Source: Methanomassiliicoccales archaeon PtaU1.Bin124 (lineage in GTDB: Archaea; Thermoplasmatota; Thermoplasmata; Methanomassiliicoccales; UBA472). From it: a stretch of DNA of 64,000 nt. The stretch is from NCBI GenBank assembly GCA_002067865.1, contig MVRC01000012.1, positions 1 through 64,000 on the forward strand. Direction: 5' to 3'. This document shows, piece by piece, positions 2,928 to 52,548 of this stretch. The translations under genes were made by a program, and so were the position numbers. How positions within the stretch are numbered: the first letter of the stretch is position 1; every line of letters begins with the position of its first letter. The notes below the pieces were generated by a model. The model saw only the letters and a list, made by a program, of their open reading frames with translations, was not told the DNA's origin and made no database searches.

Positions 2928-4028
2928 ATGAGCCTCACGCCCGATCTCATCAGGGCGAACATGTCGTTGGAGGAGATCGAAACCCATGACCATGTGGCCC
3001 TGTTCTATGCCGATGATGACGAGCGGGACCGCCAGTCGGCCCGTCTATGCTCGATCGGATACGAGAGGGGGGAGCAGATCGTCCTGCTGGCGACACCGGA
3101 CGTGCTGGAGGGGCTGCGGCGGCATCTCACCATCCCGGGAAGGTCTTTGGCGGAACTGGAGGCGGGCGGCAACCTTCGTGCCGTTCTTTTCGACGAAGGG
3201 GAATCGTACGATGAGGAGAAGGCCCTCCTCTTGCTGGAGAAGCTGGTCCACGACGGGGTAGCAAAAGGGTTCCCAGCGGTCAGGATCATCACCTATGCTT
3301 CATCGCTGGCCCGATGGTGGGACATGAAGGCGCTGCTCCGCATCGAATCTTTGTGCAACGAGATCTTCGAAGAGACCGCGGCGGTCAGCGTGTGCTTGTG
3401 GCAGGCCAACGAACCGATGGTGATGTCTGTCGTGGCCCGCCATCCTTTCCTGGTGGTCCGGGGGTTCCTGTGCAGCAACTACTTCTACATGGCCCCGGCA
3501 GACGTGGCGAAGGACGAAAGGGCCATACCGGTAGGGCCGGCGTTCTTGGACCGGTTGTTGGACATACAAATGAACGAGCTTTCCCTGAAGCAGCAGGATG
3601 AACGGATGAAGGAGGTGAATTGTCGTCTGGCCGATGAGATGGAACAGCGGCAGAAGGTCGAATGGGCGCTGGTCCTGTCGGAGAACAATTATCGTAACGC
3701 TCTGAACGCCATGGCCGACATGGTGCACGTCATCGACAGGGAAGGGAAGGTGGTCCTGGCCAACCACGTCTTCATCGACAAGGTGAAGCAACTGGGCTAC
3801 CCTGGGAACGTGATCGGCGATAGGCTGAGCGATATGCTGCCATACCTTTGTCAGGAGAACCTGGAGGATAATGAACGGGTGTTCAACACCGGCTGTTCAT
3901 TGAAGAAGGAGGAGATGGTGCGAATCGCCGGGCACGACATCTGCATCGAGGTACGTAAGATACCGGTGATGAACGGTCCCTCGGCGTACAACGTTCTGAC
4001 CATAGCGCGAGAAGTGGAACAGCGTTGA
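2928..4028 (+). CDS. MEDS-domain plus PAS-domain sensory protein without output domain
   Basis: A 366-residue soluble protein. Residues about 15-190 look like a MEDS (methanogen/methylotroph DcmR sensory) domain, with HDHVALFYADDDERDRQSARLCSIGYERGEQIVLLA at its start. A helical, probably coiled-coil linker follows (about 205-245, NELSLKQQDERMKEVNCRLADEMEQRQKVEWAL). The C-terminal PAS domain (about 250-366) includes ALNAMADMVHVIDREGKVVLANHVFIDKVKQLG. No histidine kinase, HTH or cyclase follows, so it must signal through a partner or act as a ligand sensor only. The gene is monocistronic; a TATA-like AT-rich stretch lies just upstream (2890-2915) and ACAAGG precedes the ATG. Confidence 0.8.
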   Translation: MSLTPDLIRANMSLEEIETHDHVALFYADDDERDRQSARLCSIGYERGEQIVLLATPDVLEGLRRHLTIPGRSLAELEAGGNLRAVLFDEGESYDEEKALLLLEKLVHDGVAKGFPAVRIITYASSLARWWDMKALLRIESLCNEIFEETAAVSVCLWQANEPMVMSVVARHPFLVVRGFLCSNYFYMAPADVAKDERAIPVGPAFLDRLLDIQMNELSLKQQDERMKEVNCRLADEMEQRQKVEWALVLSENNYRNALNAMADMVHVIDREGKVVLANHVFIDKVKQLGYPGNVIGDRLSDMLPYLCQENLEDNERVFNTGCSLKKEEMVRIAGHDICIEVRKIPVMNGPSAYNVLTIAREVEQR

Positions 4029-4133: not shown

Positions 4134-4154
4134 AGTTGGATGATATATCCAACT
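4134..4154. promoter_or_regulatory. Candidate operator 1 of the corrinoid operon (perfect 8+5+8 dyad)
   Basis: AGTTGGAT-N5-ATCCAACT with spacer GATAT. This 21-bp site is identical to the one before the peptide gene (50975-50995) and has the same arms as the one before cobT (12827-12847). It overlaps the predicted transcription start, which suits a repressor. Confidence 0.8.
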
Positions 4155-4167
4155 GACACATATATTC

Positions 4168-4188
4168 GGTGGGATATACCATCCAATG
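4168..4188. promoter_or_regulatory. Candidate operator 2 of the corrinoid operon (degenerate copy)
   Basis: GGTGGGAT-N5-ATCCAATG matches 12 of the 16 arm positions of the perfect dyad. It ends 12 bases before the btuF ATG at 4201, the same distance as the single sites before cobT (12) and the peptide gene (13). Two sites may allow cooperative repression of the operon. Confidence 0.55.
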
Positions 4189-4200
4189 GGGAGGACTGAA

Positions 4201-5226
4201 ATGGAAAGCAAGGGAAAGGCGCTGGCGGCAATAGCCGTCGTTGCTCTGCTGCTGATCGCAGGAATGTGGGTGCTGCTCGGGAGCGGCAAGAAGGATACAT
4301 CCGTAACGTTGACTGATGCCATGGGCCGTGAGGTCACAGTGGCCACCAAACCTGATTCGGTCGTCTCCTGCTCCCCCGCCATCACTGAAATGATCTACTC
4401 CTTTGGAGCCGGTGACATCCTCCTTGGGTGCACTTCATACTGTGACTATCCCTCTCAGGTCGTCTCCGCCAAGGAGAATGGAACTGTAAAGGTCATTGGT
4501 AACTTCTATACCAACCTCAACACTGAGATGATCATAGGTCTCTCCCCCGATATCGTGTTCATGGAGGAGTCGGTCGAGAACAGCATCCAGCAGATATCCA
4601 AGCTGGATGATGCCGGGATCAAGGTCGTGGTTCTGAAGACTGCCAGCGGTTTCGAGGCCATCAACGACAACTTCGACCTCATGGGCAAGGCCCTCCACCT
4701 CGAATCCAAGGCTAGCCAGCTCTCCCAGAACATGGATCTCAAGCTGAAGTCCGTGGCTACCAAGGTGGCCGGGGAGACCGTCAAGCCCTCCGTCATGATC
4801 GCGGTATACTGGAACAGCAACTCCATATGGGTGGCCGGTAATGGGACCTCCATCGACGAGATCCTGGCCAGCGCAGGTGGGAACAACGCGTTCCACAGCA
4901 GTAACTCATATGATCAGGTGAACGCCGAGGACATCCTCGCCGCCGACCCCGATATCATCGTCCTGTGCGGCATGGCGCTCGGGAACGCCGATGTTGCCCT
5001 GAGCCAGTTGCAGAACGACCCGGTGCTGAAGGATCTTAATGCAGTAAAGAACGGCAAGGTGTACGTCCTCCTGGACCAGTCCGAGAACACCCTCGTAAGG
5101 CAGGGTGAGCGCATGGTCGAAGGCGCCTATCTCTTGGCCATGATCATGTATCCGGAGCTGTTCACCAAGACGCTGCCGAAGACGCTCTACGATGACTATA
5201 AGAGCTACCTACCCAGCACATGGTGA
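4201..5226 (+). CDS. btuF: Corrinoid ABC transporter substrate-binding protein (BtuF-like)
   Basis: A 341-residue type III periplasmic-binding protein. The start at 4201 is preferred because GGGGAGGACTGA sits just before it; the ATG at 4186 lies inside the second operator. Residues 7-27 form a membrane anchor, with no lipobox cysteine seen. The binding domain follows, with TDAMGREVTV, SCSPAITEMIYSFGAGDILLGCTSYCDYP and SPDIVFME, all typical of BtuF/FecB-like proteins. Its position ahead of btuC, btuD and cobinamide-salvage genes argues for cobamide or cobinamide as the ligand rather than a siderophore. First gene of the operon; controlled by the dyads at 4134 and 4168. Confidence 0.9.
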   Translation: MESKGKALAAIAVVALLLIAGMWVLLGSGKKDTSVTLTDAMGREVTVATKPDSVVSCSPAITEMIYSFGAGDILLGCTSYCDYPSQVVSAKENGTVKVIGNFYTNLNTEMIIGLSPDIVFMEESVENSIQQISKLDDAGIKVVVLKTASGFEAINDNFDLMGKALHLESKASQLSQNMDLKLKSVATKVAGETVKPSVMIAVYWNSNSIWVAGNGTSIDEILASAGGNNAFHSSNSYDQVNAEDILAADPDIIVLCGMALGNADVALSQLQNDPVLKDLNAVKNGKVYVLLDQSENTLVRQGERMVEGAYLLAMIMYPELFTKTLPKTLYDDYKSYLPSTW

Positions 5227-5243
5227 GATCGGAGGCGTAAAGG

Positions 5244-6284
5244 TTGGAGCAATCCCACGTAGGGAGAACGAAATCGCGCCTATGGCTCATTCTGGGCCTG
5301 GGAACGGTTTCCCTTTTCATCCTTTTCCTCATATCACTCAGCGTAGGCTCGTATAACATGAGCTGGAGCGATGCGCTCCAGGCGTTCATCAACTCGGTGA
5401 TGATGGGGGGCGATACCTCCGCAATGAACACCCAGGAGAAGATCGTCTTCCTGGTGAGGTTCCCTCGATTCCTCGCCGCCATCGCCGTTGGCATAGGCCT
5501 GGCGATCGCAGGCGCCATCATGCAGGCCATCGTCAGGAACCCTCTGGTCGACCCGTATATCACCGGCGTCGCTTCTGGGGCTTCGTTCGGCGCCATCGCT
5601 CTCACTATGCTCGGTTTTGCCTCTGGGACGCTCGCCGTCTACCTTCTCCCGATGTCTGCTTTCATCGGGGCCATCTTGGCATTCATCATCACCATGTCCA
5701 TCTCCGAGGCCGCGGGCGGGAAGGCCATCGCGTTCGTCCTCAGCGGCGTGGTCGTTGCCTACGCCTTCTCCGCTTTCACCAACATCATCATCGTCAGCAA
5801 CCCGGACCAGCACAAGAGCATCATGTTCTGGATGTTCGGCAGCTTGGCATCGGCCGATCTGACCCAGGATGCCATAATGCTGATCGCCCTGTTCTTCATC
5901 GGGGCGGCGGCGCTGCTCTACGCCCGCGAGCTGAACGTCCTTCTCTTGGGGGATGAGCAGGCGAACCAGCTAGGCGTCAACTCCCGCCGGCTCAAGTTGA
6001 CCATGATGGTCTTGGCCTCGGTCATGACCGCCGTGTGCGTCGCATTCACCGGCGTCATCGCCTTCCTGGGCCTGCTGGTGCCTCATATCGCCCGCATCAT
6101 CGTGGGCAGCGACCATCGCTTGCTGCTTCCAGCGTCGATGATGATCGGCGCGAACTTCCTGCTCGTTACGGATATCGTCACCAAGATGAACGGAGACCTG
6201 CCCATCGGAGCGGTGATCTCGCTCATCGGCGCTCCGTTCTTCGGTTACCTGCTCATATCCCGGGGGAGGGACTATGGCTCCTGA
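5244..6284 (+). CDS. btuC: Corrinoid ABC transporter permease (BtuC-like)
   Basis: A 346-residue FecCD/BtuC-family permease with about ten hydrophobic segments. Family landmarks are VRFPRFLAAIAVGIGLAIAGAIMQAIVRNPLVDPYITGVASGASFGA near the N-terminus and FTGVIAFLGLLVPHIARIIVGSDHRLLLP plus GDLPIGAVISLIGAPFFGYLL near the C-terminus. The start is TTG at 5244, with GGAGG at 5231-5235 as ribosome-binding site. It forms the membrane channel with BtuF and the ATPase BtuD. The last 11 bases overlap btuD. Confidence 0.93.
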   Translation: MEQSHVGRTKSRLWLILGLGTVSLFILFLISLSVGSYNMSWSDALQAFINSVMMGGDTSAMNTQEKIVFLVRFPRFLAAIAVGIGLAIAGAIMQAIVRNPLVDPYITGVASGASFGAIALTMLGFASGTLAVYLLPMSAFIGAILAFIITMSISEAAGGKAIAFVLSGVVVAYAFSAFTNIIIVSNPDQHKSIMFWMFGSLASADLTQDAIMLIALFFIGAAALLYARELNVLLLGDEQANQLGVNSRRLKLTMMVLASVMTAVCVAFTGVIAFLGLLVPHIARIIVGSDHRLLLPASMMIGANFLLVTDIVTKMNGDLPIGAVISLIGAPFFGYLLISRGRDYGS

Positions 6285-7059
6285 TGCGATGGTTACGATC
6301 TCAGACGTCCATTTCACCTACGGGGGAAAGGAGACGCTCAAGGGGATAACCTTTGATGCCAGGGCAGGCGAGTTCATCGGCCTGATCGGTCCGAACGGTT
6401 CCGGGAAGACGACTCTGATGCGCTGCATCAATTCCATGCTGCGGCCTCAGAAGGGAACGATCATAGTCGATGGGAAGGATGTGTCGAAGCTGAAGGTGAA
6501 GGAGGTGGCCCGCATCTGCGCCAACGTCCCGGCCGACTGCAACGAGGACTTCAACCTCTCCGTGCAGGAGCTGGTGTTCCTTGGCAGATACCCGCATGTG
6601 GACGGGATGTGGTGGGAGAGCAAGAGGGACGAGTCCGTGGTCAAGGAGACCATGCACAAGTTCGAGCTGGACAACCTCGCCGGCAGGAAGCTGTCCGAGC
6701 TGAGCAGCGGGGAGAAGGCCAGGGCTTTGCTGGCCAAGGCCGTGGTGCAGGCCCCCAAGGTGCTGTTGGCGGATGAGCCTAGCGCCCACCTGGACCTCAG
6801 ATATCAGCTGGAGGTCATGGAGCGGCTACGGGAACTGTCTCGGCAGGGGGTATGCGTCATCACCGTGTCGCATGACATGAACCTCACTTCGAAATATTGT
6901 GACAGGGTGCTGATGCTGGACCAGGGGAACATAGCGGCGATGGGCCGTCCCTCGGAGGTCATCACCGCGGAACGGATCAGGGACGTTTATGGGGTGGAGG
7001 TCTCGGTCTTCAGGGACGGGGACGAGATATTCGCCATCCCGCGCAAGGCGATAAGGTGA
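6274..7059 (+). CDS. btuD: Corrinoid ABC transporter ATP-binding protein (BtuD-like)
   Basis: A 261-residue ABC ATPase. It has Walker A GPNGSGKT (about residues 37-44), the signature loop LSSGEKARALLAKA (S in place of the usual second-position G), Walker B VLLADEPSAHLD and H-loop VSHDMN. It powers the BtuC channel for corrinoid uptake. GGGGGAGGG lies just before the ATG at 6274, so the start overlapping btuC is preferred over the later ATG at 6289. It is translationally coupled to btuC and followed 4 bases later by cobD. Confidence 0.93.
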   Translation: MAPDAMVTISDVHFTYGGKETLKGITFDARAGEFIGLIGPNGSGKTTLMRCINSMLRPQKGTIIVDGKDVSKLKVKEVARICANVPADCNEDFNLSVQELVFLGRYPHVDGMWWESKRDESVVKETMHKFELDNLAGRKLSELSSGEKARALLAKAVVQAPKVLLADEPSAHLDLRYQLEVMERLRELSRQGVCVITVSHDMNLTSKYCDRVLMLDQGNIAAMGRPSEVITAERIRDVYGVEVSVFRDGDEIFAIPRKAIR

Positions 7060-7063
7060 GCAA

Positions 7064-8167
7064 TTGGACCCGAACGAGCTAGCCAGGATCGAAGTGCAGA
7101 GATCGGCCCGCCCGGTCCACGGCGGACTGGGATGGAAATATCCCGGAGTGGAGGACTTCAGTTCCAACCTCAACCCGTATGGCCCCCCCGCACAGCTGGC
7201 CCAGTACATCGACGAGGCCCGCGACAGGCTCATCTGGTATCCCGACGACCATTCCACGGAGTTCCGCAATGCCATATGCTCCCGGCTCGGGGTTGCCCCG
7301 GACCAGGTGATAGCAGGGGCGGGCAGCGCCGAGCTGATCAGGCTTTTCCCCGAGACGTTCCTGGACCGGGGGGACAAGGTGCTGATGCCCCGTCCCACCT
7401 TCGCTGAATATGGCTATGGCTGCCGTCTGCGCGGAGCTGAAGTGATCGAAGTGCCGCTCAGGGAGGACAACGACCTCAGGATCGATCTGACAGAGATGAT
7501 GTCCCGCCTGCAGGGATGCAAGGCGGCCTACATCTGCAATCCCAATAACCCCACTGGCAGGGTGCTTTCCCGGAAGGAGGTGCTGGAGTTCGCCTCGGAA
7601 TGCGAGCGGCGCAAGGCGCTGCTCTTCCTGGACGAGACGCTGCTGGAGCTGGTCCCGGGCTCGAAGGACATCACCTGCATCGCCGAGGTCGGTTCCAGGG
7701 ACAACATCTTCCTCATCCGCTCCCTGACGAAATGCTTCGCCATGCCTGGCATGCGCATCGGCTATGGCATAGGGAACGACCGGATCGTTCGCCTTATGGA
7801 CTCGGCCAGGCTCTCCTGGAACCTGGGGCAGCTGGAGCAGCACGTGGGCGCCAAGCTGCTCACCGATTGCTATGGTCACATCTCCAAGGCGGCCGAGATG
7901 ATGGGAAAGGAGAGGTCCAGGATGGCCAAGGAGATATCGGCGACTGGCCTGGTGAACATCCGTGAGCCAGACTCGTTCTTCTTCTTTGGCAGGTGCAACG
8001 GCCGTACCGGCCTCGAAATGCAGGAGGAGCTGCTGGGCCAGAATGTGCTGGTGAGGGACTGCGCGTCCTTCGGGCATCCTTTCGAGCACTATGTGCGCTT
8101 CTCAGTGAAGACGCCCGAGCGCAATTCCTCGCTGATCGAGGCGTTCAGGAGAGCGGGAGGCGTATGA
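7064..8167 (+). CDS. cobD: L-threonine-O-3-phosphate decarboxylase (CobD-like)
   Basis: A 367-residue fold-type I PLP enzyme of the HisC/CobD group. It shows FSSNLNPYGPP near residue 30, YICNPNNPTGRVLS, FLDETLLELVPG, and the PLP-lysine stretch RSLTKCFAMPGMRIGYG. CobD makes (R)-1-amino-2-propanol phosphate, the aminopropanol arm of cobamides. HisC also has this fold, but a dedicated hisC lies at 27669-28724 and this copy sits between btuD and cbiB, which supports CobD. The start is TTG at 7064 after AAGGTGAGCAA. No CobD/PduX-type kinase for threonine is present in the window. Confidence 0.88.
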   Translation: MDPNELARIEVQRSARPVHGGLGWKYPGVEDFSSNLNPYGPPAQLAQYIDEARDRLIWYPDDHSTEFRNAICSRLGVAPDQVIAGAGSAELIRLFPETFLDRGDKVLMPRPTFAEYGYGCRLRGAEVIEVPLREDNDLRIDLTEMMSRLQGCKAAYICNPNNPTGRVLSRKEVLEFASECERRKALLFLDETLLELVPGSKDITCIAEVGSRDNIFLIRSLTKCFAMPGMRIGYGIGNDRIVRLMDSARLSWNLGQLEQHVGAKLLTDCYGHISKAAEMMGKERSRMAKEISATGLVNIREPDSFFFFGRCNGRTGLEMQEELLGQNVLVRDCASFGHPFEHYVRFSVKTPERNSSLIEAFRRAGGV

Positions 8168-8168
8168 A

Positions 8169-9155
8169 ATGGAACTGATACTGTACGGTCTTCTCATCGC
8201 GGCGCTGGGCCTGGCGCTCGACCTTACCCTGGGCGAGCCACCGAACGCGCTCCATCCGGTCGTTTGGATCGGCAAGGTCATCGGCTTCCTGGACAAGCGC
8301 ATCAAGCGCACCGGTCAAAAGGCGGACAGGCGTAAGGGCGTCCTAATGGCATTGACCCCGTTGATCCTGTTCCCGCTAGTCTTCACGCTGCTGCTGGCCA
8401 TCATCCATGACATCTTTGGAGCGTTGGTCTGGGCCATCGCCTGCGCCATCGTCATGAAGACCATGTTCGCCATCACTGCCATGGAACGCCATGTAAAACC
8501 GATCATGAAGGCCCTGGAGAACAACGACCTGGAGAAGGCCAGGCATGGGGCGAGCATGATCGTCTCCCGCGACGTCTCCAAGCTCGACAAGGAGCATATC
8601 ATCTCCTGCGCGGCCGAATCTGCGGCGGAGAACACGGTCGACTCGGCCTTCTCCCCGCTGTTCTTCTTCGGCCTCGGTGGCATACCCCTCATGGTCTTCT
8701 ATCGGGTGTCGAACACCCTGGACGCCATGGTTGGATACATGACGCCGAAGCACATCGACGTGGGCAGGTTCAGCGCCATACTGGACGATTACACGAACTG
8801 GATCTGCGCCAGACTGAGCGTGCCGTTCTTATTGCTGGCCATGATGCTCCTCCGCCTTGACTGGAGGCAGGGGTGGGCCATGGCCAAAAAGTACAAGCAT
8901 GCCACGAAGTCGCCCAACAAGGGCTGGTCCATGAGCGCCTTCGCAGGGGGCATGGGCATCCGGTTCGAGAAGTACGATTATTATCAGCTGGGGGACGGAC
9001 CGCTGCCGTCCGACCCCAAGGTGATAGGGCAGACGATCGCCATCATGAAGGTGTCCACCATCCTTTTCTTCCTGATAGTGGTTCTACCTCTGTTCCTGTT
9101 CATCGGCATGAACGTGCAACTGTTCGTGGAGGGGTTGCTGACCTGGTGGCTGTAG
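8169..9155 (+). CDS. cbiB: Adenosylcobinamide-phosphate synthase CbiB
   Basis: A 328-residue polytopic membrane protein. LALDLTLGEPPNALHPVVWIGKVIG near the N-terminus is diagnostic for CbiB/CobD(Pseudomonas nomenclature). Further family segments are SRDVSKLDKEHIISCAAESAAENTVDSAFSPLFFFGLGGIPL and DDYTNWICARLS. It amidates adenosylcobyric acid with aminopropanol phosphate, the product of CobD encoded just upstream. GGGAGGCG precedes the ATG, which comes one base after the cobD stop. With CbiS it forms the salvage route: cobinamide is cleaved to cobyric acid and rebuilt here. Confidence 0.95.
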   Translation: MELILYGLLIAALGLALDLTLGEPPNALHPVVWIGKVIGFLDKRIKRTGQKADRRKGVLMALTPLILFPLVFTLLLAIIHDIFGALVWAIACAIVMKTMFAITAMERHVKPIMKALENNDLEKARHGASMIVSRDVSKLDKEHIISCAAESAAENTVDSAFSPLFFFGLGGIPLMVFYRVSNTLDAMVGYMTPKHIDVGRFSAILDDYTNWICARLSVPFLLLAMMLLRLDWRQGWAMAKKYKHATKSPNKGWSMSAFAGGMGIRFEKYDYYQLGDGPLPSDPKVIGQTIAIMKVSTILFFLIVVLPLFLFIGMNVQLFVEGLLTWWL

Positions 9156-9166
9156 GGGGGATCGAA

Positions 9167-10306
9167 ATGAGAGCAAAGGACATCAAGATCGAATTCAAGA
9201 CATCACAGGGATACAAGGTGATGCTGGTGCATCTGCCCAAGCGCATGCACGTACTGAGCACCACCGTCCGCAACGGGGCCTTCACCGTGGCCGACACCAT
9301 CATGATGGTGCAGGTGCCGATCAGCTACAACGGCAACGACCCGGAGGGCGAGCTGGAGAACATCGTGAAGGAGCTAGGGCTGAACGAGCACACGGTGGGC
9401 TTCATGACCGCTGCCGACATGGAAAGGGTCATCACCGTGGTGGAGCAGGAGTATCACGACGAACGGGCCGTGGCCATCGTCACCGCCGGCGTGAAGAACT
9501 GCGTCTATGCCGGCGAGCTGATCCCGGACCATATCCAGGCCCAGCTGGGCGGGGGGATGGCCCACACCATCAACACGATGGTGGTATTGGCCCGCCCGCT
9601 TCACGATACCGGCATGGTCAACGCGGTCATCACTGCCACAGAGGCCAAGTCCGCGGCATTGAAGGACTGTGCGGTGCGGGGCACGGGCACGACCAGCGAC
9701 GCCGTGGCGATCATCTGCCCCATCGGCGATGGGGAGAAGTACGCCGGAACGGCCACAGACATAGGCATCTGCCTGTCGCGGGCGGTCCGCCAGGCTGTGA
9801 AGGAATCGACCCTGAAATGGTACCAGCGTCCTCCTGCCATCGACTTCATCGCGCAGCTGGACGACCTGGGCATCACGGTCGACAACATGTGGGAGGCGGC
9901 GAAGAAGCTGGTCTTCCCCAACGAACAATGGAGCGATGAGTTCCTGAAGCAGAAGTTCGTGGACCGGCTGAACATTCTGCGGCAGGATGTCAACGTGAAC
10001 GCGCTCATCAGCGGCGCCATCATGCTGGAGGACCGCGGCTACCGCAACGAGCTGTACGGGCTGGACAACGACCGCTTCAAGGCGGACCCCGTCCACCTGC
10101 TGGCCGACGAGGTGCTCGGAATCGGTCTGGCGGAGTACATCACCGGGACCAAGGGACTGTTCGAGTACATCCGTTACGACAAGAAGAAACCAGGCATACT
10201 GGCCGACCTGGGCCCGTTCATGGACGACATCATCGCGTCGCTCATCGGAAGCATTATGTCGGTCATATACTCTGAACTGCTGGAGGGGGAAGGATCACTG
10301 CAATAG
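9167..10306 (+). CDS. cbiS: Bifunctional adenosylcobinamide amidohydrolase / alpha-ribazole-phosphate phosphatase CbiS
   Basis: A 379-residue fusion. Residues 1-about 230 match CbiZ adenosylcobinamide amidohydrolase, including ERAVAIVTAGVKNCVYAG and TGTTSDAVAIICP. Residues about 275-379 match CobZ, the PgpA-like alpha-ribazole-phosphate phosphatase, with ALISGAIMLEDRGYRNE, DPVHLLADEVLGIGLAEYI and KPGILADLGPFMDDIIASL. The same fusion is known as CbiS in Methanopyrus kandleri. It would remove the aminopropanol arm from salvaged cobinamide and dephosphorylate the lower-ligand nucleotide or its cobamide phosphate. The start at 9167 follows GGGGGGATCGAA; a longer open frame from 8873 runs inside cbiB and has no family similarity. 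Confidence 0.92.
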   Translation: MRAKDIKIEFKTSQGYKVMLVHLPKRMHVLSTTVRNGAFTVADTIMMVQVPISYNGNDPEGELENIVKELGLNEHTVGFMTAADMERVITVVEQEYHDERAVAIVTAGVKNCVYAGELIPDHIQAQLGGGMAHTINTMVVLARPLHDTGMVNAVITATEAKSAALKDCAVRGTGTTSDAVAIICPIGDGEKYAGTATDIGICLSRAVRQAVKESTLKWYQRPPAIDFIAQLDDLGITVDNMWEAAKKLVFPNEQWSDEFLKQKFVDRLNILRQDVNVNALISGAIMLEDRGYRNELYGLDNDRFKADPVHLLADEVLGIGLAEYITGTKGLFEYIRYDKKKPGILADLGPFMDDIIASLIGSIMSVIYSELLEGEGSLQ

Positions 10307-10329
10307 GAGCGGTAAAGGCCGCATTTTCG

Positions 10330-11088
10330 ATGTTCACCCTCGTCCCCATCGACGTGGAGGGCGAGGACGTGATGGAGCTGTCAAAGAGGTTCTACCTGGT
10401 GGTATTGGTCGGCCTGGTGCTGGGCCTGATCGGCGGGACGGCGATGTTCCTGCTGACCGAGGTCTACTCGCCCTTCGTCTGCGCCATCATCGTGGTCTTC
10501 CTGCTGATGGGGCTGAACCGCTTCCTGCATCTGGACGGCCTGACGGACATGGGCGACGGGCTCATGGTGCTGGGGGACCAGGAGAGGAAGATGACGGTCA
10601 TGAAGGACTCGCACATCGGCGCGGGCGGTATGGCATACGCCATGCTCTTCACCCTGCTGTCGGTCGGTGCCCTGTCCGGCGTCGGCCATGACTTCTACTT
10701 CCTGGCGCCGCTCACTGCCGAGGTCATGATCAAGGTGTCGATGGTCGCATGCGCATCGGTGGGAGATGCGAAGGAGGGAATGGGTGGCATCTTCGTACGC
10801 AACACCGACGGCAACAACCTGCTGATCGCCGTGGCGCTGGCCCTCATCATCATCGTTCCGGCCTGGATCTGGCTGAGCCCTGATTGGATAAGTGCAATGG
10901 GAAAGACGCTGACATTGGTGCTGATCGTCCTGGTGACGACGATCACCGGTGCGTACGTCGCCAGGCTGGCCATGAAGCATTTCGGATGCGTCAACGGCGA
11001 CATATTGGGCGCAACGAACGAGATCGCCAGACCGATCGTTCTGTTGGCGATATCTGGTGCCATATGGGCCGCCAGCTATCTGCATTGA
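10330..11088 (+). CDS. cobS: Cobamide (cobalamin) synthase CobS
   Basis: At least 252 residues, strongly hydrophobic. LNRFLHLDGLTDMGDGLMVLG is the CobS metal-binding signature, and MKDSHIGAGGMAYAM and CVNGDILGATNEIARP are further family motifs. It joins adenosylcobinamide-GDP with alpha-ribazole (phosphate). In-frame codons just before the ATG at 10330 (GAVKAAFS) look like the conserved CobS N-terminus, yet no ATG, GTG or TTG lies there. The real start may be a rare codon such as the ATA at 10303 behind GGAGGGGG at 10282. The coordinate given is the conservative one. The 3' end overlaps cobY. Confidence 0.92.
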   Translation: MFTLVPIDVEGEDVMELSKRFYLVVLVGLVLGLIGGTAMFLLTEVYSPFVCAIIVVFLLMGLNRFLHLDGLTDMGDGLMVLGDQERKMTVMKDSHIGAGGMAYAMLFTLLSVGALSGVGHDFYFLAPLTAEVMIKVSMVACASVGDAKEGMGGIFVRNTDGNNLLIAVALALIIIVPAWIWLSPDWISAMGKTLTLVLIVLVTTITGAYVARLAMKHFGCVNGDILGATNEIARPIVLLAISGAIWAASYLH

Positions 11089-11704: not shown

Positions 11705-12814
11705 TCACTTCTTGTGGGCCATGAGGCGTTCGTAGTTATGCTCGATCTCTGCCAACAGTCCGGCAGCATCGATACGTCCCTCGCTCTGGGCGATTGCAGC
11801 TATGGACGATCCGCCCGCCCCCACACCTTCCTTGACCAGTCCGGTCTCGTAGATCTTCAGTCCGTCATACTTCGACCTTGAGAAGTCCAGGTTGGCCCCC
11901 ATCACTGGAACGGACCCGATCTGTTTCACCAGGCTCTTCAGGTCGGACGTCTTGTCGTTCAGGATCCACCTGGTCGTTCCCAACGCCACGTTCTTCAGCA
12001 CCGCCGGTTCCATTCCCTTGACGATGCTGAGGACCGCAGCCATCTGGGTTCCCCCGGCCAACATGACCGGGATGGTCCTGGCCGCTCCGACGATAAGTCC
12101 GGCCGCGGCCGGCATCATCGGGTCCCCGACCGCTGCTACTGCGGCCATCGGGTCGCGCTTCATCTCGTCCGCCTTGAACTTTGTCTTCCCCAATCCTTCC
12201 CTGGCCACCTTGGTCTTCTGGCTGTGAGGGTTCGCGGGGAAGGTGCTGGACACCTTTCCCTCGGCGTCATAGCCCTGGGCCAGTAGGACAGCCAATGCGG
12301 TTGTCGTCCCGCCGGGTATGCTCTCACCCACGACCAGGTACTCGGCCTTCTTGGCCAGGTTCTCCCCTGCCACGACCGCGCTCTCATAGACCTTCAGTGG
12401 GTCCTTGACCGCCGCTCCCGTGCGAATGTCCTCCCCCCCGGCGCCGTCCAGTTCGAAATAAGGCGCGATGGGGCGGACCCTGACCCCGCCGTTCACGGCG
12501 AAGACCGGCATCTTGGTCAGCCCTACCGCGCTCATGGTGATGATGCCCGGGGTAGGTATGCCATCGGGCGTGATGGGCACTCCAGGGATGCACTTGCACT
12601 TGCCGTAGAACAGCAGCTCCACATCGGCCGCGGGGGTGAAATCGGTGGCCGCGGGATTCGCTCCGGCGGCGGAAAGGCCAGGGATCTTGGCGGTCTCGGT
12701 GTTGCCGATCGTGCACACGAAGGTGGGGGTCTTGCCCCAGATCTTCCCTAAAAATTCAGTGGCCTGTTTCTCCTCGGCGGCTATGGTGATGCTCTCTGGA
12801 ACCTTAGACTTCAT
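11705..12814 (-). CDS. cobT: Nicotinate mononucleotide-dependent phosphoribosyltransferase CobT (archaeal type)
   Basis: A 369-residue protein of the archaeal CobT group. Motifs include GNTETAKIPGLSAAGANPAATDFTPAAD near the N-terminus, VGESIPGGTTTALAVLLAQG, DPMAAVAAVGDPMMPAAAGL and the C-terminal VKEGVGAGGSSIAA with the catalytic-type glutamate. It transfers ribose phosphate from NaMN to the lower-ligand base, giving alpha-ribazole phosphate for CobS/CbiS. It converges on the btuF-cobY operon. Its ribosome-binding site AGGTGA directly abuts the dyad at 12827-12847, so binding there would affect both operons of the pathway. Confidence 0.93.
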   Translation of the reverse strand: MKSKVPESITIAAEEKQATEFLGKIWGKTPTFVCTIGNTETAKIPGLSAAGANPAATDFTPAADVELLFYGKCKCIPGVPITPDGIPTPGIITMSAVGLTKMPVFAVNGGVRVRPIAPYFELDGAGGEDIRTGAAVKDPLKVYESAVVAGENLAKKAEYLVVGESIPGGTTTALAVLLAQGYDAEGKVSSTFPANPHSQKTKVAREGLGKTKFKADEMKRDPMAAVAAVGDPMMPAAAGLIVGAARTIPVMLAGGTQMAAVLSIVKGMEPAVLKNVALGTTRWILNDKTSDLKSLVKQIGSVPVMGANLDFSRSKYDGLKIYETGLVKEGVGAGGSSIAAIAQSEGRIDAAGLLAEIEHNYERLMAHKK

Positions 12815-12826
12815 ATTGTCACCTAA

Positions 12827-12847
12827 AGTTGGATGTATAATCCAACT
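12827..12847. promoter_or_regulatory. Candidate cobT operator (perfect 8+5+8 dyad)
   Basis: AGTTGGAT-N5-ATCCAACT with spacer GTATA. It ends 12 bases before the cobT start and begins about 20 bases after the TATA-like box at 12866-12874, so it covers the predicted transcription start. Arms are identical to those at 4134 and 50975. Confidence 0.8.
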
Positions 12848-50013: not shown

Positions 50014-50106
50014 CTTTAATATTGCGTAGGCCCTAATCGTTCTCAACCAACATCGCGACAGAACCACTCCCCAAATGGTCCCGTGGCGATTTCAAGGATG
50101 GATCAA

Positions 50107-50736
50107 ATGCGGATAGCCATAGTGGCCTGTGACACCTTCAAGCGCGAGCTGGAGGAGCTGACCCATGATGACGATGATTTCGTCTACCACGAATATCTGG
50201 AGTTCGGCTTGCACGAGTTCCCAAAGGAACTGAAGGTCGCCGTCATCGAAAAGGTGAACTCCCTGGAAGGGAAGGTGGACGCGGTACTGCTAGGCTATGG
50301 CACCTGCCAGTCCCTCAAGGACATCGAGAAGGAACTGAAGGTGCCTACCGTCACTTTTCATGAGGACGATTGTATCGGCGTGTTCCTCACTCAGGATGAG
50401 TATAACCTTGAGAGGAAGAAGTGCGCCGGAACGTTCTATGCCATACCATACTTCGCTGAAATGGGAATGGACTTCTTCACCAAGAACTGGGAGAAGAGGA
50501 TGGGGGACGCCGCCAAAGAGATAGACATCAATCAGATCGTCCGATTCATGTTCGACGGCTATTCCCGCAGCCTGTATGTCCATACCACCGGTGACAGGGA
50601 ACATTACGAATGCTGCGCCAAGAAGTTCGCGGACGACCTGTCATTGCGGCATGAATCGCGAGACGGGACATTGAAGGTCATGAAGGATGCGATCGAACAG
50701 GTCAAGGAGCTTGCGTCCATCCAACAGGCCGTATGA
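50107..50736 (+). CDS. DUF1638 family protein
   Basis: 209 residues from the ATG at 50107 (AAGGA nine bases upstream); ATG 50098 and GTG 50083 are alternatives. RIAIVACDTFKRELEEL, DAVLLGYGTCQ, TVTFHEDDCIGVFLTQDEY and YECCAKKFADDLSL recall the DUF1638 family. In methanogens and acetogens these genes often lie among corrinoid methyltransferase genes, which would fit the corrinoid-linked dyad 240 bases downstream. That association is from memory. Several cysteines (residues 9, 76, 95 and later CC) could bind a metal. It ends with a T6 tract. Confidence 0.7.
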   Translation: MRIAIVACDTFKRELEELTHDDDDFVYHEYLEFGLHEFPKELKVAVIEKVNSLEGKVDAVLLGYGTCQSLKDIEKELKVPTVTFHEDDCIGVFLTQDEYNLERKKCAGTFYAIPYFAEMGMDFFTKNWEKRMGDAAKEIDINQIVRFMFDGYSRSLYVHTTGDREHYECCAKKFADDLSLRHESRDGTLKVMKDAIEQVKELASIQQAV

Positions 50737-50751: not shown

Positions 50752-50869
50752 CTCATTTATTTCACTATTATTAATAAATGATATTCTATATTAATTAATT
50801 TAATATTATCTAATTATTTTATCGAATTCCGGGTTGGTTTGTACATCATTCTTTGAACAGAGATATCAG

Positions 50870-50884
50870 TGGATGGTCCATCCA
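50870..50884. repeat. Perfect 7+1+7 dyad with operator-like half sites
   Basis: TGGATGG-T-CCATCCA. The TGGAT/ATCCA core is shared with the operator arms but the spacing differs. Confidence 0.45.
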
Positions 50885-50942
50885 TTCCGTTCATATGCTT
50901 GGATGGATACAGGTACCACTGGACATCATCCATCCCGTAAAA

Positions 50943-50952
50943 TTATTAATAT
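50943..50952 (+). promoter_or_regulatory. TATA box of the peptide/radical SAM cassette
   Basis: TTATTAATAT, about 25-30 bases before the dyad at 50975, so transcription should begin in the dyad. Confidence 0.5.
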
Positions 50953-50974: not shown

Positions 50975-50995
50975 AGTTGGATGATATATCCAACT
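50975..50995. promoter_or_regulatory. Candidate operator of the peptide cassette, identical to btuF operator 1
   Basis: AGTTGGAT-N5-ATCCAACT with spacer GATAT, all 21 bases the same as 4134-4154. It ends 13 bases before the peptide ATG. Confidence 0.8.
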
Positions 50996-51008
50996 AAGAG
51001 GAATGAAC

Positions 51009-51113
51009 ATGAGCGCAAAGATGTGCAGGATGAACTGCAAGGTCGACGGCAACGGATTGTCTCACTACATAATCTATGCCGGCGACAACGAAGGGGATGA
51101 GTTCCCCTTCTAA
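51009..51113 (+). CDS. 34-residue precursor peptide of a radical-SAM-modified (RiPP-like) product
   Basis: A short ORF too small for routine calling. GAGGA (50998-51002) lies six bases before the ATG at 51009; ATG 51003 in the same frame is poorly placed. The peptide has Cys6 and Cys10 (CxxxC), a GNG at 14-16, His19, Tyr20, Tyr23, and an acidic tail ending GDEFPF. It lacks a signal sequence or double-Gly leader. Directly downstream is a SPASM radical SAM enzyme, the usual arrangement for modified peptides. It may correspond to a peptide/radical SAM pair catalogued in TIGRFAMs as CbpA/CbpB, but I cannot verify that. The dyad at 50975 ties its expression to corrinoid genes. Confidence 0.8.
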   Translation: MSAKMCRMNCKVDGNGLSHYIIYAGDNEGDEFPF

Positions 51114-51116
51114 ACC

Positions 51117-51124
51117 TTTTTTTT
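51117..51124 (+). terminator. T8 tract between precursor and enzyme genes, possible partial terminator
   Basis: TAAACC followed by eight T. The same AAACC-plus-T-run pattern follows the radical SAM gene (52558) and pstS (58857). Partial stopping here would make more peptide message than enzyme message. Confidence 0.4.
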
Positions 51125-51138
51125 CAGGAGAGAATCAC

Positions 51139-52548
51139 ATGACACCCACAGAATCAACGGTCAAACCCTCCTATCCTATCATTCCGACCAACCTCAACTC
51201 CGGAAACGGACCGAGGCTAGGCATGATCGATGTCGGCAACAACTACGTTCTCATCGATCCCGACAGCATGTTCTGGGCGCTCGTCCCCAAGGGTGCCGAC
51301 ATGAACAGCGTCATCGAAGAGGAGGTGCTTCCCATGTACCACGAGCACGCCAACGCAATGGCAGAGGAGATGAAGGAGTTCCGCATGAGCGAGAGGTTCA
51401 GCGCCGTCTACTTCAATCCGACCGGTTCCTGCAATGCCAACTGCGCCTACTGTTACCTTCCGGACGACCTCCGGTCCAAGGGCAAGAACATGTCCCTTAA
51501 CGAGATCTCCCTCGCATTGGACAATCTCCATGATTTCTTCGAGAACTACCCAGGCAGCGTGGCCAAGGACGGTAAGAGGCCCGTGATAGTCTTCCACGGC
51601 TCCGAGCCGATGCTGGTAAAGGAGGAGATCAAGAAGGCGGTGGCACTGTACGAGGACCGATTCCTCTTCGGCGTACAGACCAACGGATATCACCTGGACG
51701 ACGCCACCATGGACTATTTCATGGACCACAAGGTCAGCGTCGGGATCTCACTGGATGCCCCATTCAAAGCTGTCCATGACAAGATACGTCCGCTCCGCGG
51801 AGGCGGCGGGACATATGACCGAGCGGTCCACTGCATCGACTACCTGGACGGATACCGTAACATGAGCGTCATTTGCACGATATCTTCCATGAACGTGAAG
51901 ACGCTCCCAGACATGGTCGACTTCCTGGTCGGAAAAAAGGTGCCCAGCGTTCTCATGAACCCAGTTCGTGGAACGCAGGAGGTGGCCAGGGCCATTAGGC
52001 CGAAGAACGACGACCTGATCCCGAACTTCACCATGGCGATCGAACGGGCCATCGAGCACACCAAGGCCGGTCATCGCATCACCATCGCAGATTTCTCCAA
52101 TCTGGTGCTTGGCATCGTTGCACCGATGGGCCGCCGGCTGATGTGCGACATCACCCCCTGTGGCGGAGCACGCTGCTTCGTCTCCGTGGCATCGGACGGC
52201 AGCATCTTCCCCTGCAGCGAGTTCCTCGGACTGGACGCTTGGAAATCCCATAGCGTGTTCGAAAAGGGGGGCGTCGAGAAAGCGGTCAGGTCAGAGAAGC
52301 TGGCAATGGTCCGGGGACGGATGGCCGAACACATACCCACCTGCAATACCTGCCTGCTGCGCAATATCTGCGGAGCGCCTTGCCCAGGCGAGGTGTACAG
52401 CGAGTCAGGGAGCATCATTGGTAAAAGCCCGTACTGCGAGTTCTACGAGGCGATCATACGGTTCGCGTTCAAGCAGGTGGCAGAAGGCAACCTCCCCTAT
52501 CTGATCAAGGAGAAGGACTTCCAGTTCAAGTTCAACACCTTGGAATGA
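51139..52548 (+). CDS. Peptide-modifying radical SAM enzyme with SPASM-type C-terminal domain
   Basis: 469 residues from the ATG at 51139 (AGGAGAG just upstream). Residues 1-90 are a distinct N-terminal region that might recognise the peptide. The radical SAM core carries C98, C102 and C105 (CNANCAYC), FHGSEPML like the GGEP motif, and GVQTNGYHLDD. The C-terminal part holds C336, C341, C346, C359, C402, C405, C411, C415 and C433, enough for auxiliary 4Fe-4S clusters as in anaerobic sulfatase-maturating and other SPASM enzymes. No sulfatase is nearby, and the 34-residue peptide gene 25 bases upstream is the likely substrate. Products could be thioether, C-C or other crosslinks at Cys6/Cys10 or aromatic residues. 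Confidence 0.9.
   Translation: MTPTESTVKPSYPIIPTNLNSGNGPRLGMIDVGNNYVLIDPDSMFWALVPKGADMNSVIEEEVLPMYHEHANAMAEEMKEFRMSERFSAVYFNPTGSCNANCAYCYLPDDLRSKGKNMSLNEISLALDNLHDFFENYPGSVAKDGKRPVIVFHGSEPMLVKEEIKKAVALYEDRFLFGVQTNGYHLDDATMDYFMDHKVSVGISLDAPFKAVHDKIRPLRGGGGTYDRAVHCIDYLDGYRNMSVICTISSMNVKTLPDMVDFLVGKKVPSVLMNPVRGTQEVARAIRPKNDDLIPNFTMAIERAIEHTKAGHRITIADFSNLVLGIVAPMGRRLMCDITPCGGARCFVSVASDGSIFPCSEFLGLDAWKSHSVFEKGGVEKAVRSEKLAMVRGRMAEHIPTCNTCLLRNICGAPCPGEVYSESGSIIGKSPYCEFYEAIIRFAFKQVAEGNLPYLIKEKDFQFKFNTLE

Follow-up and report, generated by a model that had tools for sequence, protein, structure and literature searches.

The gene pair cbpA–cbpB of the Methanomassiliicoccales archaeon PtaU1.Bin124 probably forms an intracellular module, producing a radical-SAM-modified peptide, that belongs to a cobalt/corrinoid-limitation regulon and plausibly supplies a cobalt or corrinoid ligand or carrier; on balance, this is the reading we favor. 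The sequences themselves document the gene pair, its conservation, the selection acting on it, its operator and the surrounding regulon. The pair lies in the window, a stretch covering positions 1–64,000 of contig MVRC01000012.1.

A conserved peptide gene precedes a SPASM maturase gene

The two genes and their translation signals are arranged as follows:

50,996–51,002, + strand: ribosome-binding site of cbpA, AAGAGGA, read from the sequence
51,009–51,113, + strand: cbpA, a 34-residue precursor peptide, MSAKMCRMNCKVDGNGLSHYIIYAGDNEGDEFPF (34 codons plus stop)
51,126–51,132, + strand: ribosome-binding site of cbpB, AGGAGAG, read from the sequence
51,139–52,548, + strand: cbpB, a radical SAM/SPASM maturase of 469 aa (profile, motif and model evidence)

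The initial annotation described a 34-codon ORF, provided with a ribosome-binding site and ending 25 nt before the radical SAM gene; this layout was borne out, the cbpB ATG lying at 51,139. A second candidate start exists, an in-frame ATG at 51,003; the start at 51,009 is preferred because of the ribosome-binding site spacing and the alignment of relatives. The same annotation had named the lack of a conserved upstream ORF as the observation that would count against a precursor peptide, and a peptide ORF was found upstream of all 20 full-length cbpB orthologues (nine from Methanomassiliicoccales and 11 from Hydrothermarchaeota). Across 21 alignable codons from nine genomes, the pN/pS of cbpA was 0.09, indicating strong purifying selection and, thus, a translated peptide whose sequence is important. 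Judged from sequence, the 34-codon ORF is a real gene.

An alignment of 13 representative peptides revealed the invariant residues R7, C10, G16, L17, H19, Y20 and P33 (numbered according to the window peptide), together with near-invariant G14 and F34. The conserved core reads R-x2-C-x5-G-L-[S/T]-H-Y, plus P-[F/L] at the C-terminus, and contains a single invariant cysteine. The CxxxC motif originally proposed as a signature did not hold: only its second Cys is invariant, the first is missing from most Hydrothermarchaeota peptides, and the alignment with distant relatives ruled out CxxxC as a family feature.

CbpA matched TIGR04164 as its sole family (24.3 bits, E 1.6e-5), under the curated cutoff of 35 bits, and was identified by position and alignment as a short peptide directly 5' of CbpB with the conserved core present. 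Its relatives encoded beside over-cutoff CbpB proteins scored 17.8–29.4 bits. Since every CbpA tested falls below the cutoff, even beside such an enzyme, the threshold seems too strict, and automated annotation relying on it would miss cbpA. The profile search of 390 genomes with TIGR04164 returned three matches only, the peptide model being too short for searching.

CbpB scored 480.3 bits against TIGR04163 (curated cutoff 375), spanning profile positions 5–423 of 428, and 55 bits against PF04055. The radical SAM CxxxCxxC motif comprises Cys98, Cys102 and Cys105, invariant in 20 orthologues. SPASM domains carry a seven-cysteine motif, Cx9-15Gx4C...Cx2Cx5Cx3C...C, which in CbpB is represented by Cys341, Cys359, Cys402, Cys405, Cys411, Cys415 and Cys433, all invariant in the 20 sequences; Cys336 is a further invariant cysteine in these orthologues. 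CbpB remained far under the cutoffs of the PapB (116 bits, cutoff 340), DynA, SCIFF maturase and anaerobic sulfatase maturase profiles, and sulfatase maturation was rejected as its activity (TIGR03942, 94 bits vs. a cutoff of 349.45).

The folds nearest to the AlphaFold2 model of CbpB (pLDDT 86.9) were CteB and the anaerobic sulfatase maturase anSME, followed by the peptide maturases ChlB, SkfB and SuiB. CteB (PDB 5wgg) gave the best E-value, with 18% identity in the fold alignment, while anSME (PDB 4k36) gave the top TM-score to target among the matches (0.81–0.84), although its substrate context differs from that of CbpB. Residues 28–83 of the model form three strands and a long helix, and residues 1–97 have no Pfam match, which raises the question of an RRE/PqqD-like element. 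CteB and the ranthipeptide maturase PapB share with CbpB the radical SAM and SPASM fold and a short Cys-containing peptide substrate; unlike their substrates, CbpA has one conserved Cys and lacks a conserved CX3D/E or six-Cys pattern (the PapB substrate motif is taken from PMC9413430).

Altogether, the conserved upstream peptide and the radical SAM and SPASM motifs support the proposed pairing of a peptide with a SPASM enzyme. The tentative identification of the pair as CbpA/CbpB is supported by the family search, in which CbpB exceeded the TIGR04163 cutoff and CbpA matched the TIGR04164 core; the label "unannotated", in the sense of unknown, has to be dropped, as the pair belongs to a named family. 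In NCBIfam (TIGR04164, cobo_pep; TIGR04163, rSAM_cobopep) the peptide gene directly precedes the enzyme gene, as it does here, and the names hint that the curators were aware of a cobalt/cobalamin link. A literature search that included the family accessions found no paper on CbpA/CbpB and no described function. The family name was already known; new here are the assignment of the pair to a regulon, its conserved peptide core and a candidate regulator, and the operator, regulon and candidate regulator of the present pair are missing from the model descriptions.

The cbpA promoter carries the operator of the corrinoid genes

The regulatory elements and the corrinoid genes of the window are:

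4134–4154: operator identical to that of cbpA, before the corrinoid uptake/salvage operon (sequence match)
4186–11,088, + strand: corrinoid operon encoding Peripla_BP_2, FecCD, ABC ATPase, aminotransferase, CbiB, CbiZ and CobS
11,705–12,814, − strand: CobT-like phosphoribosyltransferase (PF02277)
12,827–12,847: operator AGTTGGAT-GTATA-ATCCAACT before the CobT-like gene, with perfect arms and a different spacer
50,869–50,885: degenerate second dyad GTGGATGGTCCATCCAT, two mismatches, 108 bp 5' of the first, with a presumed operator role
50,942–50,952, + strand: TATA-like ATTATTAATAT, tentatively read from the sequence
50,975–50,995: operator dyad AGTTGGAT-GATAT-ATCCAACT of cbpA, probably over the transcription start (cobalt/corrinoid regulon)

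The identity of the cbpA dyad with that of the corrinoid uptake operon, claimed at the outset, is exact: the 21-bp AGTTGGATGATATATCCAACT occurs letter for letter at 50,975–50,995 and 4134–4154. Three operator sites were seen in the window, compared with 0.17 expected (≤3 mismatches). A perfect operator core lies 32–43 bp before the cbpA ATG in 9/9 complete Methanomassiliicoccales loci, and the pair is accordingly counted as a regulon member. Seven f5 cbpA loci possess a second dyad 72–73 bp above the first, often degenerate (≤3 mismatches). The TATA region of the f5 loci appears to lie between the paired dyads, a layout that would suit a repressor.

Two other genes of the window were noted nearby. 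A DUF1638 protein is encoded at 50,083–50,736, 5' of cbpAB, and a DUF1638 homologue also occurs near cbpAB in genome G126, alongside corrinoid-protein-like genes. A MEDS + PAS sensor protein (2928–4028), encoded just 5' of the corrinoid operon, is a possible second regulator.

An order-wide cobalt/corrinoid regulon and its candidate regulator

The operator TTGGAT-N5-ATCCAA was found in 128 of 147 Methanomassiliicoccales genomes, while the reversed control yielded almost no matches; the nine genomes with complete cbpAB contain 7–18 copies each and none of the control. In six sampled genomes, the genes next to the operator were mostly related to corrinoid or cobalt, encoding BtuF-type binding proteins, FecCD permease, CbiM, CobT-like, CobQ, CobN, CbiC, CbiX, CobO, HemD, CbiA, a siroheme synthase-like protein and a CbiT-like methyltransferase. 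Among the remainder, a zinc-type dehydrogenase was found at six loci, alongside secreted proteins with PKD/beta-propeller domains and a small number of genes that could not be assigned. The regulon of the 2.2 Mb PtaU1.Bin124 genome includes the btu operon, the CobT-like gene, cbpAB, the dehydrogenase, cobQ and hemD/cbiA; one of its eight core matches (C18, L042:1397–1417) falls in an apparent tRNA anticodon arm and was discounted as a false positive. The predicted co-regulation of cbpAB with corrinoid uptake is thereby supported and can be widened to the cobalt/corrinoid regulon in its entirety. Judging from known archaeal corrinoid or metal operators, a palindrome in the promoter ahead of corrinoid and cobalt genes is the form to be expected. 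No match to TTGGAT-N5-ATCCAA was found in the literature searched, which does not by itself prove that none has been published.

The zinc-type dehydrogenase (L118:2954–3988, C15; relatives L090, L097, L101, L106 and L111) is a frequent member, present in six genomes and preceded by tandem operators in PtaU1.Bin124; it might provide the aminopropanol linker from threonine. Behind the same operator, L087, L091 and L102 encode large secreted PKD/beta-propeller/dockerin proteins, whose N-terminal part reads as a transcobalamin-type (DUF4430-like) domain. These proteins are possible surface corrinoid binders.

The best candidate for the regulator is a Fur-family protein encoded beside cbiM. Its gene lies directly 5' of cbiM in four genomes (G010, G020, G023 and PtaU1.Bin124), with the operator positioned before fur in G010 and between fur and cbiM in G020 and G023. 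In PtaU1.Bin124 this gene (L139:1489–1875) encodes the only Fur homologue of the genome, and a search of its fur–cbiM promoter revealed no perfect dyad.

Distribution of cbpAB in two archaeal phyla

We surveyed the pair in two archaeal phyla. It is rare: the 147 Methanomassiliicoccales genomes contain nine complete copies and one partial copy, and the cbpB relatives recovered by the enzyme search include those of Methanomassiliicoccus sp. UBA6, UBA386 and MXMAG1. Since the regulon is present without cbpAB in the majority of the order's genomes, the pair is dispensable for corrinoid supply. No CbpB was found outside Methanomassiliicoccales among 390 sampled genomes of the same phylum, nor on viral contigs. 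Among 23 genomes from the phylum that includes Ca. Hydrothermarchaeum profundi, 11 carry the pair. An unrooted CbpB tree separates Methanomassiliicoccales and Ca. H. profundi from the remaining Hydrothermarchaeota, and the CbpA types NGLSHYIIY and GAGLTHY split in the same way. This unrooted tree can plausibly be read as horizontal transfer of cbpAB, after which the pair was captured by the resident corrinoid regulon.

The cbpAB-bearing Hydrothermarchaeota showed no shared corrinoid operator. A dyad TTGATT-N4-AATCAA lies at cbpA in three genomes; in G480 it occupies another place, and G495 lacks it. Its single copy per genome argues against a regulon in this phylum. CobS is equally frequent with and without cbpAB; none of the three lines examined, namely gene neighbours, operator and CobS occurrence, independently backed a corrinoid link in Hydrothermarchaeota. 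A MarR-like + DUF7839 regulator gene adjoins cbpA in two of these genomes (L047:8851–9660 and L127:9634–10,425) and may encode a local cbpAB regulator.

A proposed role and its alternatives

From these observations we infer a modification, a repression mechanism, a regulator and a job for the peptide. The genes cbpA and cbpB would constitute a two-gene RiPP-type module. CbpA would be modified by the SAM-radical chemistry of CbpB, and the likeliest product is a cross-link in which its one invariant Cys and the residues G-L-[S/T]-H-Y take part. A Cys cross-link is a first guess because there is one invariant Cys and the nearest relatives of CbpB are thioether-forming; that Cys is compatible with the Cys thioether bond that defines sactipeptides and ranthipeptides, and CX3D/E is not conserved in CbpA. 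In Methanomassiliicoccales, TTGGAT-N5-ATCCAA would control the pair through a repressor, for which the Fur-family protein beside cbiM is the likeliest candidate; an ample supply of cobalt or corrinoid would keep it bound over the transcription start, and scarcity would release it. Consistent with the earlier remark that the pair lacks a nearby exporter or protease gene, neither is conserved next to cbpAB among the neighbours examined across loci; with no signal sequence evident in CbpA and near-zero sequence variation, unlike antibiotics, this suggests that the product stays inside the cell. Mature CbpA would there aid the cell under cobalt/corrinoid limitation, most plausibly as a cobalt or corrinoid ligand or carrier.

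That the operator match is coincidental, with cbpAB lying outside the corrinoid regulon, is very improbable: the tRNA-arm match illustrates that single matches can arise by chance, but a perfect site at a near-constant position in every complete cbpA promoter, accompanied in seven by a site 72–73 bp upstream, does not fit such an origin. It is still less credible, to the point of being nearly negligible, that CbpB acts on another substrate such as a sulfatase, with the peptide ORF there by chance; the resemblance to the anSME fold speaks for it, but the peptide is kept under purifying selection at 20/20 loci and the sulfatase-maturase score is far under its cutoff.

The initial annotation had offered a chelator, a chaperone or a signal as possible roles of the peptide. 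The ligand role fits co-regulation with cobalt uptake (cbiM) and corrinoid uptake, and cofactor or signal roles fit almost as well. Modified CbpA could give rise to a small redox cofactor, comparable to PQQ or mycofactocin, for an enzyme used during limitation, its His-Tyr being modified. The invariance of G-L-[S/T]-H-Y and of C-terminal P-[F/L] over two phyla, in a single short peptide that hardly varies and has no exporter, agrees with this; yet the pair has no conserved protease, dehydrogenase or glycosyltransferase beside it, and the mycofactocin maturase model fell far under its cutoff for a relative, leaving the cofactor rather unlikely. We give about the same modest chance to CbpA as a signal or regulatory peptide, or an inhibitor, tuning corrinoid enzymes or a regulator under corrinoid scarcity: a very short intracellular peptide co-regulated with the whole regulon would suit such a task, but most genomes have the regulon without cbpAB, and no partner was found. 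Returning to the ligand reading, its most specific form, in which mature CbpA is a radical-made, non-exported cobalt/corrinoid ligand induced via a Fur-family repressor that senses cobalt and uses a new operator, is doubtful when taken as a whole.

Overall, a named but functionless gene pair is now linked to cobalt/B12 nutrition, which makes its role testable. Placement in the regulon provides a growth condition for finding the modified peptide and a phenotype for testing, and the operator points to a single candidate regulator. Beyond this pair, TTGGAT-N5-ATCCAA delimits a cobalt/corrinoid regulon for an entire order of methanogens reliant on corrinoid methyltransferases.
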